From the NCBI GenBank assembly GCA_005877205.1, contig VBPL01000010.1:1-34674 (forward strand): a DNA stretch of 34,674 bases, read 5' to 3'. This document shows, one piece after another, positions 10,713 to 32,740 of the stretch (positions are counted from its first letter, which is position 1; the number at the start of each line of letters is the position of its first letter). This DNA is from Nitrososphaerota archaeon. GTDB lineage: Archaea; Thermoproteota; Nitrososphaeria; Nitrososphaerales; Nitrosopumilaceae. The translations under genes were made by a program, and so were the position numbers. Under the pieces are notes generated by a model, which worked only from the letters and a program-made list of their open reading frames with translations, had not been told where the DNA came from and ran no database searches.

Positions 10713-12299
10713 TTATAGATATTCTGAGATTGTGAGGGATACTTTCTTTCTTCCTATATCAAGGATAAATGGACCCAGTTTTGGTCCACGATCTGATGCC
10801 AAAATAATTTGGTATAATATCTTGAAGAAGTCCTTTGGCTGAATTCCATTACTCTTTGCGATTTGATATATGTCGTTTTGAAGATCAGATGGCTCATTTT
10901 CAGAAGATAGCAGATTTGACAATTGTGATAATGCCTTCTTTGAGACGCTATCTATTTGGAGCTCAACCTTTGTTGGTTTGTCAAAGTCGTCAGCATAATT
11001 GCCAGCTAGTGTGATGAGCTCTTCTACTTCAGGAGATGATTCTTTTATGGTACCATATTCTATAAGCTTCTTTGTGACCTTTGGTATTCTATCTTCTCTA
11101 AATATCTTGGATAGCTGAATCAACAATCTGTAGTTAACATACGGTTTTGGACTTTTTGGTGGGTTTAGAAGATTGACATATTCGTACAGGCCCTTTGCCT
11201 TGACCGTTTTCATCTCGTTATCTAGTTTTATTTTTCCAAAGTAAATGTTCTCAAGCTCATTGTATTCGTCCACCAAAGCTGGAATGTCCTCAAAACCAAC
11301 CTCCCGAGTTCCGGTAATTCTTTTGTATAGTAATAGTAGAATTGATTTTGGTGTACCGTATCTTAGCCAGGTTTGTGATGTAACAACATTTCCAAGAGAT
11401 TTTGAGATCTTCTTACCGCCTTTATCTAGAAACATTTCATATTTTACATGGGTAGGATGAGGAAATCCCAATATCTCATCGGATACCCAGTCGTTTACCT
11501 TAACTGAATCCATAATGTCTTTACCATATGCTTCAAATCGTACGTCAAAAGCCTGCCACCTGGCAGCAAATTCTACCTTCCATGCAAGCTTACCGAGATC
11601 CTTTGTAATGTCAGCTATTCCGTCGTATCCACATCCTTGTAGAATCTTCGAACCAATTGTAGTACCAGTACACCTGTACTTGATCTTCCTTTCGTCAGGC
11701 AAGTATTCGTAGGCTATAGCGGTATACAATCTTCCACAGTTTGTACAGACGGGGAAGTAAGGTAGGGCCTCTCGATATTTTTCCTGACCTACCATCTCAG
11801 CAATTTTTTCACCAATTTTTTTGCTGTTAACTAATATGTTGTGGATCTGTTCTTTCAACAACCCATTACGATAGGTGTCTATTCCCCGTTGAAATCTGTA
11901 CTTTATTTCAAGCTTATCAAGTCCATCAAGAAGGAGACTGCTCATATGAAGTCCGTATGAATCATGGCAACCAAAGGGATCAGGGATAAAAGAAACAGGT
12001 TTTGATATGTGATCGTTTAACCAATCTGGTAATCCCTCCGGAATTTTGCGAAGGCCATCGACATCGTCTGAATATGCAACAAGTTCTGATTTGTATCCAA
12101 AGTTTTCAAGAGCAAGTTTTACTCCATAAGCTCTCACGGCATCGCCCAAACTCCCGATATGAGGGATTCCTGATGCCCCAAGGCCACTTTCTACTCTGAT
12201 AAGGCTGGTATTCCTACCAAGTGCTTTTTCTCTCTCTAACAGCTCGTCAGCTAGTTTGTCTATCCAGGTTCCTTTTCCAATGATTTGTTGCTCTTCCAT
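10713..12299 (-). CDS. lysS: Class I lysyl-tRNA synthetase (LysK)
   Basis: A 528-residue cytosolic enzyme that charges tRNA-Lys with lysine using ATP. It is the archaeal class I form, not the class II form of most bacteria and eukaryotes. The HIGH motif reads G-I-P-H-I-G-S (44-50) and the KMSKS motif K-I-S-K-S (297-301). A zinc-like Cys set lies at C185-x2-C188 and C210/C223. The C-terminal helical part (about 360-520) is the anticodon-binding domain. The length is normal. Its ATG shares one base with the elp3 stop (TAATG), so the two are translationally coupled, and a small membrane protein follows three bases after its own stop. Confidence 0.95.
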   Translation of the reverse strand: MEEQQIIGKGTWIDKLADELLEREKALGRNTSLIRVESGLGASGIPHIGSLGDAVRAYGVKLALENFGYKSELVAYSDDVDGLRKIPEGLPDWLNDHISKPVSFIPDPFGCHDSYGLHMSSLLLDGLDKLEIKYRFQRGIDTYRNGLLKEQIHNILVNSKKIGEKIAEMVGQEKYREALPYFPVCTNCGRLYTAIAYEYLPDERKIKYRCTGTTIGSKILQGCGYDGIADITKDLGKLAWKVEFAARWQAFDVRFEAYGKDIMDSVKVNDWVSDEILGFPHPTHVKYEMFLDKGGKKISKSLGNVVTSQTWLRYGTPKSILLLLYKRITGTREVGFEDIPALVDEYNELENIYFGKIKLDNEMKTVKAKGLYEYVNLLNPPKSPKPYVNYRLLIQLSKIFREDRIPKVTKKLIEYGTIKESSPEVEELITLAGNYADDFDKPTKVELQIDSVSKKALSQLSNLLSSENEPSDLQNDIYQIAKSNGIQPKDFFKILYQIILASDRGPKLGPFILDIGRKKVSLTISEYL

Positions 12300-28606: not shown

Positions 28607-28720
28607 ATGAAACTAGGAGTATTTTTTCTCATGCAAGCTGAGGCATATTGGGCATTAACAACTAGCTCAACTTTTCCACAATCAACACCTAAAATTGTAA
28701 ATCCTCAGATGAAATGGTAG
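28607..28720 (+). CDS. Putative 37-residue ORF overlapping the surface-protein start
   Basis: ATG to TAG encodes 37 residues with a hydrophobic start and a Ser/Thr/Pro-rich remainder. The last seven bases overlap the ATG at 28714 of the following gene, which would allow coupled translation. The TATA support is weak, and the frame may be chance or just the leader of the surface-protein mRNA. Confidence 0.25.
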   Translation: MKLGVFFLMQAEAYWALTTSSTFPQSTPKIVNPQMKW

Positions 28721-31700
28721 TACAAATGAGATACTGGAAAACATACTTTATTGCAAGCTTTTTGGTACTAGTCCTAATTGGACAAAGCTATACGGTTATG
28801 GGTCAGACAATCTCTATAGCAGATCATGTAATCATAAACGAGGTTGAAACAAATCCGCCAGGCGATGATTCAAAGCTTATCAGCCAGTGGGTCGAACTGT
28901 ATAACCCAACGAGCAATCCAGTAAACATTGGTGGTTGGTCAATTGGTGCAACTACTGGGCTTCGACACTATTACACAATTCCCAGTGGTACAATAATTCA
29001 AAGTCAACAATTTCTTCTTTATACGTATGGTCCGCTATGGTTTCCTTACACAGGCGCAGTTGTACAACTAAAGGATTCAAATGCAACAATAGTTGATGAA
29101 ACGCCTCCTCTAACCGATCAAACTGATGATACTAATTCTTGGCAACGAATGTACGATGGTTATGATACTGGTTCTCAAACTGATTGGGTTTTCAAAGTGG
29201 GAAGTCCTGGTTCATCAAATGGAAAGCCATCTGGAGCGACGACCTCTGGCCAAGTAGATATCTCTGTAGCTACAGATAAAACAAGCTACAATTTTGGTGA
29301 CACTGTAAATATAAGCGGCCAAGTCTCAAACCTTGTTAATTCAGTTAATGGCTATCCTCAACAAGTAAACCTTGTAGTATCAGAACCAAATGGATTTCAT
29401 AAAACATTCACTTTGTATCCAACGAATAATTTGCAATTTTCTGCTACTATAAAACTCGATGAAGTCTTGGGATTCCAAGAGGGTACATACAGTATATCTG
29501 CTACTTATGGCGATGTACACACGTCGACGGTCTTTTCACTTGGTGCAGTACAATTTGTACCTCCTGAACAAAATGCGCCAGTTACAATCAGTGTAGCTAC
29601 AGATAAGCCAACTTATACAATCTCGCAGCCAATCACGCTGCAAGGAAACGTTTCAAAGATAATTCCACTCAAAGCTGTTACCTATAAGGTATATGATCCA
29701 AACAAAAGTCTAATCTCTCAAGGCAGTATATTTCCTGATTCTCAAGGGAAATTTTCTTCTTTCAATCCTTACCAACAGCACCTAAGCAATTCAGGAATAA
29801 CAATTAATAGCGTAAACCCAACTTATGGTATTTACACTCTAGTTGCTAAGTATGGTGACACGACAACCACTACATCCTTTTCAGTGTTTCCGGAAGCCAT
29901 ACAAAATTCTGCAATCTCCTTATCTACAGATAAACAAGTATATGCTCCGGGCGATACAGTGGTAATTAGTGGCAGTACTACCGTTCATGGATTGCAAAAT
30001 GTGGGATTATCTCCAAGTATGCAAATTGTGCAAACATTTACGCCGGTCATTAGCCAATGTGGTTTGAAATGTGGTGGTATATCAGTAAATACGATGGACA
30101 TCAAAACTTTCGTAAATCTTGACGCTGATAATACATTTACGTACAAATTGTCATTGGCAGCCACTTCTGGCAGTTTAGGTAATTATCGAGTTACCGTATC
30201 AATACCAACTGGTAAAGCAGAGACTAATTTTGTTGTGGTCGAAAATCCTTCGAACTATAATGCCACCACCTCAAATCTGCCATTTAGTATCAAGACTGAT
30301 AAAACGTTGTATAGTCTAGGTGATCCTATAATTATTTCTGGCCAAATACTGAATCCAACCTCAATTGCTACTCAAAACGCTGGACTGAATGTAAAGATCG
30401 ACGTATTCAATTCGACAGGTGGCTATTTGATTTCTGGAGGTAGTTTTATCAATAATATTTTTGTCCCAAAATCTGCGCCACTGTACTACTACGCATTTCC
30501 AAATAGCAACGGACAATTTCAGACAAGTCAAACCCTTCAGCGTGGAATATATCATCCTGGAAGTTATACATTGAAGGCCACATACGGTGAACTTGCTGCA
30601 AGAACACAATTCAGTGTTTATGACTCTCTTGGTACGGCCTCCCAAGGAACCATAATAACAAGTACAGATAAAAAAGTCTACGGCGTGGGAGAAGCGGTAA
30701 ATCTTAATGGAACGATCTCTGGACTTACTGGTACTTCTTCATATACGCTAACTCTTACAAAACCAGACGGTGGTATAATCAGCACTCCTCTTCAGATAAA
30801 CAACGGATTCTTTTCTTGGAGTTGGACTATACCAAGTACTGCCACAGCTGGCAGCTCTCAAATAATAGGTACCGATAGAAAATCTGTTGTCACAATAAAC
30901 CCATCAGCAAATCTCTATGGCATCTATAGAATAACAATAAGTTCAGAGTATGCTAGAGCTGAATTATTCTTCCAAGTTTCTCAGAACCCGCAGCAGACAA
31001 CTGAGATATCACCTATTGCTGTGCAAAGCGATAAGACGGAGTACATGTCAACAGATGTCGTCAAAGTCTCAGGCCAAGTCAGCAAACACTATGGTGCAAA
31101 TCATAATCTTTTCTGACACAGGTCAGCAAGCCTATAGAGCAGATGCAAGTGTTAATGCCGGTGGGCAATTCCATATTTCTGTTCCATTACAACCAGGTGT
31201 CTGGAAAACCGGAACTTACAAGATATATTCACAGTATCTTGCTGCAAATACCAGAACAGATTTTAAAGTAACAAATCCGTTTACAACCAGCTCTGGAAAG
31301 CTCCAAGTTTTCATGACAACAGATCATGACAAGTACCTCCCGGGCCAGACCGTCCTGATAACCGGAAGGACAAGCTACATAATATCAATAGATAACGTGG
31401 ATATTGCTATCGGAAAAGCAAATGATGTTATTGTTAGCGAAGGGCAAATTATGTCAAAGAAGGGTAATGTACTCCCACACGTAAACGTGCCTTTTGATCA
31501 AACAGGATCATTTACTTATGATTATACAATCCCAAACACTGCTTCTCTTGGAAACTATACGGTAGTAGCTCAAGTGCCATTTGGAGTTTACAACACTCTT
31601 TTTGAGGTTGTTAACCAGCTACCAGCCGAGAATGTTCCACCGCAAGAAAATGCTACTCTAACAAATCCTACATCTAATGCAACGCAGAACCCACCACCAT

Positions 31701-32179
31701 TAACAATCGTTCCAGATAGTATAGGACCTAGCCAGAAACGAATCAGTACATCGATGATAGTAGAAAAGACTGGCAAGATATCTACTCCCCTTATCCCAAT
31801 TACACTGAGTGAAAAATCAATTGGAAATAAAACATACTCACCACGGGAACTTGATGGACTTCTCAGAGTAAATCCTGGTGATGAAAACAGCGTAAACATT
31901 AAGGTGAGTTTAGAAGATGGTACTTGCATAATAGGACAAGATTCTAGCTGCAAGGTGACCAAATCAACGGTGCAAGGCAGTGTATTGTATAAATTCATAA
32001 AGATAGGAAATCAAGACTTCTTTATAGGATATTCAGGTACGGGTGAAAGGATAGAACAGTTTAGTATTCTACCGGCAAATGTAAATGACGTGATTCCGGA
32101 TGGGCAATGGGATGTTGAGATAATCAAAAAGGACCAAACCTCAAGATTCTATTATCAAGTTAGCTACATAGCCCAATGA
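28714..32179 (+). pseudogene. Large exported surface protein, LTD plus seven Ig-like repeats, with a +1 frameshift
   Basis: The first frame (28714-31116, 800 residues) has a signal peptide (about 1-31; ATG 28726 may be the true start). A lamin-tail domain follows (about 37-165: I-I-N-E-V-E-T-N-P-P-G, W-V-E-L-Y-N-P-T, G-G-W-S-I), then six repeats that begin like T-D-K-x-x-Y-x-x-G-D-x-V-x-I-S-G. The sixth is cut by TGA 31114-31116. The same repeat continues in the +1 frame from about 31090 (V-Q-I-I-I-F-S-D) to a stop at 32179, adding the rest of repeat six, a seventh repeat and a unique C-terminal domain. Removing one base near 31083-31090 restores about 1,154 residues. No membrane anchor or PEFG signal is seen. 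It is probably extracellular adhesive or structural; broken gene or sequencing error. Confidence 0.75.
29254..31614 (+). repeat. Seven tandem Ig-like domain repeats
   Basis: At protein level, units start at about 29254, 29580, 29915, 30280, 30655, 31014 and 31303, each opening with S/T-D-K/H-x-x-Y and then G-x-x-V-x-I-S/T-G. Spacing is 290-375 bp. DNA identity between units is low, so they are old duplications rather than recent copies. Confidence 0.65.
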
Positions 32180-32224: not shown

Positions 32225-32245
32225 TTGGTTGACTTAGAGACAAAG

Positions 32246-32740
32246 ATGCGAGTTCAAGTCTTCATGTTTAATCAAGACGATCCAACTAAATGCACAGCTG
32301 CTAAACTGGTAAAATTTGGAATCGCCAAGAAAATTAATCGAACCTCAGCAAGAACCATGGTTTTAGATCCTTTCGCTGAAAAAATTGTTCTAAGAACAGA
32401 CAGAGATTACATAGATTCCATTACTGCAATTGATTGTTCTTGGGAATTGGCCCAGAAAACATTTCTAAAGAAATTCGGCGGATTGTCAAGAAGATTGCCC
32501 CCACTTTTGGCCGGTAACCCAGTGAATTATTCTAAAATTGGCAAACTTACCACAGCTGAGGCAATTGCAGGGGTACTTTACATTATGAATTTTACCAATC
32601 TTGCAGATTCTATATTAAACAAATTCAAATGGGGTCATACATTTCTTGAGCTTAATCAAGATCTCTTAACAGAATATTCGGATGCTAAGACAGATGACAA
32701 AGTGTTTGAAATTTCAAAAGAGTACGGCTTGGCAGCATGA
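32246..32740 (+). CDS. tsr3: Tsr3-type rRNA aminocarboxypropyltransferase
   Basis: A 164-residue protein from the ATG at 32246; TTG 32225 would add seven residues. Family hallmarks are in place: D-C-S-W near residue 64, R-R-L-P-P-L-L-A-G-N-P-V-N-Y-S-K (about 83-98), L-T-T-A-E-A-I-A-G-V-L-Y (about 102-113) and F-K-W-G-H-T-F-L-E-L-N (about 127-137). Tsr3 (RLI-associated, DUF367) transfers the aminocarboxypropyl group of SAM to a hypermodified base of small-subunit rRNA late in ribosome assembly. The enzyme is cytosolic and monocistronic here. The length is typical of archaeal members. Confidence 0.92.
   Translation: MRVQVFMFNQDDPTKCTAAKLVKFGIAKKINRTSARTMVLDPFAEKIVLRTDRDYIDSITAIDCSWELAQKTFLKKFGGLSRRLPPLLAGNPVNYSKIGKLTTAEAIAGVLYIMNFTNLADSILNKFKWGHTFLELNQDLLTEYSDAKTDDKVFEISKEYGLAA

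Follow-up and report, generated by a model that had tools for sequence, protein, structure and literature searches.

A thaumarchaeal surface-protein gene split by a 29-nt deletion, most likely an artefact of a draft assembly

The comparisons described here reveal that a gene for a large surface protein, split between two reading frames in the window (the whole stretch of DNA analysed, a single 34,674-bp contig from a draft assembly of 98 contigs and 1.56 Mb), is probably intact in the organism, the split being a local assembly error that lost 29 nt. The window copy lacks 29 nt with respect to all relatives, its downstream frame is unrelaxed, the frames elsewhere are uninterrupted, and the assembly contains one or more impossible lesions of the same class; from these observations we infer that the deletion in the surface gene is likewise an assembly fault. 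In the predicted course of events, the draft assembly would have lost the 29 nt at short imperfect direct repeats, thereby shifting the frame, and the unbroken gene would encode a single exported protein of about 1,165 aa, in which a lamin tail domain (LTD) is combined with some seven Ig-like repeats of the MG2 type and a conserved C-terminal domain. The finding is thus an ordinary one, most likely not a feature of the organism but an assembly artefact.

The first open frame of the window gene, in the ORF listing, runs on the plus strand from 28714 to 31116 (800 codons, frame 1), and the second, in frame 2 of the same strand, follows from the junction onward (Table 1). Comparison with the orthologues joins the two by homology as parts of one protein, so that the split into an 800-codon frame and a continuation in the next frame to 32179, as put forward in a preliminary description of this DNA, agrees with both the ORFs and the homology. 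The junction falls inside the sixth Ig-like repeat, also as described there: the repeats start, in order, with TDKTSY, TDKPTY, TDKQVY, TDKTLY, TDKKVY, and SDKTEY, and then, in the second frame, with TDHDKY. The continuation, given earlier as open for about 360 codons in the same repeat style, comprises 364 codons without a stop and contains an MG2 match (6.4e-12).

Table 1 Features of the split surface-protein gene (positions are those of the window).
Feature	Position	Strand	Basis or remark
First part of split gene: signal peptide-like N-terminus, LTD, MG2-type repeats 1–5 and first half of repeat 6, frame 1	28714..31080	+	ORFs; Pfam; orthologue identity
Lamin tail domain (LTD)	28822..29097	+	PF00932, 52.5 bits, single match in whole assembly
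GGCCAAGTCA, stretch retained at deletion point	31072..31081	+	G-Q-V in frame 1, A-K-S in frame 2
Deletion junction, 29 nt absent relative to 33 orthologues	31081..31084	+	Between V codon (31078–31080) and N codon (31085–31087)
Second part of split gene: rest of repeat 6, repeat 7, C-terminal domain, frame 2	31085..32179	+	364 codons without stop; MG2; orthologue identity
TGA closing frame 1	31114..31116	+	11 codons beyond last conserved frame-1 codon

The comparison with orthologues in related genomes, which the preliminary description had itself proposed, was made with 33 of them, 32 from the same genus and one from the same family. In every one, the conserved motifs (S/W)G(Q/E)V and VQI are separated by 63 nt (21 codons), with no break at the junction, whereas in the window they are separated by 34 nt; the protein is encoded as a single open frame of 1,152–1,178 codons in 28 relatives. 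Nucleotide alignment with the nearest relative (G005) places the gap between window positions 31080 and 31085. As read from these alignments, the lesion is a 29-nt deletion (3n + 2), whose net effect on the frame equals that of one added base, and it was for this reason that the lesion had been taken for a single +1 frameshift caused by one extra base (A3 or an added C), a claim that has to be replaced. In a model of an intact orthologue, that of G025, the missing residues correspond to a loop between two strands (residues 782–789 and 803–810), in a stretch of low confidence. The retained decamer GGCCAAGTCA matches the nearest relative at two places 29 nt apart, in nine of ten bases at the left place and in seven of ten at the right, a match of seven of ten being reached at about 0.35% of random places in the relative's gene; its readings in the two frames fit the G-Q-V and A-K-Y of the relative. 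These matches point to joining across a short imperfect repeat, and the repeat itself does not discriminate between a join made by the cell and one made during assembly. Search of the assembly gave no second, intact copy of the gene elsewhere in the genome.

The domain composition and the genomic context of the gene are those of its relatives. The first part, beginning with an N-terminal hydrophobic stretch, contains matches to the Pfam families LTD (7.7e-13) and MG2 (4.7e-15), and the scores of LTD (PF00932, 49.2 bits) and of MG2 (PF01835, 56.2 and 46.1 bits in the two parts) lie above the curated cut-offs of 34.3 and 32.8 bits, respectively; a profile search of the whole assembly found no other lamin tail domain. 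The first part is 50–61% identical to intact orthologues, and the second part is 77% identical to the G005 orthologue (locus L064). Searches of genomes of the family found a match to the gene in most of them, and the order DUF1512, M24 peptidase, surface gene, Tsr3-like gene, and permease is kept across the relatives, so that their genes can be regarded as orthologues. The window comes from a thaumarchaeon that shares its genus with G005. The LTD/MG2-repeat surface proteins of this genus and family share domains and gene order with the window gene and reach about 1,165 aa when intact; unlike them, the window copy is split by the 29-nt deletion. The epithet "giant" used earlier is accordingly a relative one, since the genus has other surface ORFs of 2,000–2,900 aa. 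These features are naturally read as those of a putative exported surface protein with an Ig-like build and a structural or adhesive role. The predicted structure consists mostly of β strands, with macroglobulin/complement and Ig-chain folds as its nearest neighbors at low global confidence; this AlphaFold model (mean pLDDT 60.5, pTM 0.29) served solely to place strands. Foldseek with this low-confidence model listed one S-layer chain among many Ig-chain folds, and the PDB contained no sequence match to any S-layer protein, the search of solved structures giving weak matches alone. No paper on lamin tail domains in Thaumarchaeota emerged from a literature search.

Further evidence for the assembly-error reading comes from other genes of the same assembly. 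In a survey covering about 476 kb of this genome, 3 of 134 compared genes are split, namely, the surface gene and, among the 133 others, one gene broken at a run of N (a 12-N gap) and a class I tRNA synthetase broken without Ns; in 800 kb of the single-contig relative G002, none of the 68 genes checked is split. The broken synthetase (1,065 aa, with tRNA-synt_1, anticodon, and DUF5915 domains) is, in our reading of its domain architecture, isoleucyl-tRNA synthetase (IleRS), and its gene is interrupted by a 19-nt deletion (G000 contig C23, 29175–32350; L155 about 11390–11415). The whole assembly contains no other IleRS copy, the other synthetases matching at 25–37%, and the relatives with a complete gene nearly all encode it in one frame of 1,065 codons, the exception being the noisy assembly G008. 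To our knowledge, no free-living cell can lack isoleucyl-tRNA synthetase. Because the only copy of an indispensable enzyme is affected, the IleRS lesion must be an assembly error, and the assembly consequently includes local deletions made in error, of the same type as the lesion in the surface gene, which is itself missing from all relatives. Weighing against this reading, the single other break without Ns among 133 genes indicates that such errors are not dense; furthermore, replication slippage in living cells likewise removes DNA between short repeats, and a cell can dispense with a surface protein more readily than with a tRNA synthetase. Local assembly errors yielding incorrect protein-coding genes are a recognized fault of metagenome-assembled genomes (PMC7111523), and the present case shares with them the loss of a short stretch without Ns in a coding region, in an assembly that breaks its only IleRS as well. 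In the large survey by Antonov et al. (PMC3711429), singleton frameshifted genes were read as indel mutations or sequencing errors; those singletons likewise show a frame break in one genome only, although they occur in complete genomes, whereas the window belongs to a draft. Short frame-breaking deletions in draft metagenome assemblies mimic pseudogenes or recoding, and this case serves mainly as a warning.

A genuine and very recent 29-bp deletion in the organism, fixed or present in part of the population, and generated by slippage between short direct repeats, is a doubtful alternative, though one with an appreciable chance of being correct. It would make the gene a young pseudogene or a strain variant, with the protein truncated after 800 residues and deprived of its last repeats and C-terminal domain, and would mean that a surface protein retained by the rest of the genus had been lost very recently. 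The retained decamer resembles the nearest relative on either side of the deletion, as slippage predicts, and the lesion is a single one with no further stops. However, the genus as a whole and most of the family retain the gene without interruption, errors of this class can be demonstrated elsewhere in the assembly, and the 364 downstream codons show no relaxation. In comparison with G005, dN/dS is 0.15 both downstream and upstream of the junction (approximate values, as dS is high), and relative-rate tests of the downstream part against nine outgroups give even counts (e.g., 20 versus 22 changes, or about 20 against 23; not significant). About 4% of the possible single-base changes downstream would give a stop, and none has occurred. 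Neither dN/dS nor the relative-rate tests thus detect relaxed selection after the break, a result that a very young pseudogene would also give; with equal dN/dS on both sides, no stop, and no excess of changes, the break is either very young or absent from the organism. By a rough estimate, a real break would have to date from no more than about the final tenth of the interval since divergence from G005.

Programmed +1 ribosomal frameshifting, supposed to yield two forms of the protein, a short one of 800 aa and a long one of about 1,154 aa, is highly improbable. The second frame is indeed open and under purifying selection, but the frame is broken at the junction in none of the 33 orthologues, the break being unique to this genome. 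The junction was read against the generally known +1 motifs: its frame-1 codons (GTC AGC AAA CAC TAT GGT GCA AAT CAT AAT CTT TTC TGA) contain no classic slippery site, as had been noted before, and the frame ends in CTT TTC TGA, not in a stop context of the CTT-TGA or TCC-TGA type. The surrounding RNA shows no unusual folding (z −0.69), with 51 of 200 shuffled sequences folding as well. Moreover, a fused product would still be short of about ten residues whose number is constant in all relatives, so that a slip cannot rescue a protein in which residues are deleted and not merely out of frame. The expression of 800- and 1,154-residue forms by frameshifting, suggested in the preliminary description, accordingly finds no support in conservation, motif, or RNA structure; of the three readings offered there, recent breakage and an assembly fault stand, with the latter favored. 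In archaea, a −1 programmed frameshift alone has been shown, that of the α-l-fucosidase of Saccharolobus solfataricus (PMC8211752), which likewise comprises two overlapping frames; it differs in being a −1 event that has an A-rich slippery sequence together with a putative stem-loop, whereas the window shows a net +1 change by deletion and no motif. That a +1 programmed frameshift, new for archaea, was born of a 29-bp deletion in one species and sets the ratio of short to long surface protein would be a far-fetched conclusion. Internal re-initiation at the ATG at 31091, possible in principle, was considered and rejected; its product would have no signal peptide, and no Shine-Dalgarno-like stretch precedes this codon. 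Least credible of all, and refuted by the comparison of lengths, is a single extra base at A3 or C, introduced by sequencing or homopolymer error, which would account for the net frame change of +1 but not for a window 29 nt shorter than every relative at the junction.

Several further observations were made in the course of these comparisons. Across the genus there are further large surface ORFs, of up to about 2,900 aa, in which the C-terminal domain (window 31900–32160; L002 1501–1761) recurs at 30–41% identity. The gene split at the 12-N scaffold gap encodes a small exported protein (L158 5429–5440; G000 C66). The G009 orthologue (L066, contig C24) is interrupted by single Ns flanked by duplicated sequence, which marks a scaffolding fault, and in G008 (L065; C4:70352–73549) the surface gene contains frame changes and the IleRS gene several stops, the whole assembly looking error-rich; we considered these two broken copies as a sign of a labile gene and dismissed the idea, since both look like assembly noise. 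Finally, in G005, the nearest relative and also a metagenome assembly, the adjoining Tsr3-like gene has a 23-nt frame-breaking deletion (L064 2628–3099), which counts in favor of the assembly-error reading, and a second apparent frame change lies at L145 13010–13308 (C40) in a short ORF that is perhaps not a gene; the Tsr3-like gene of the window is whole (32225–32740).
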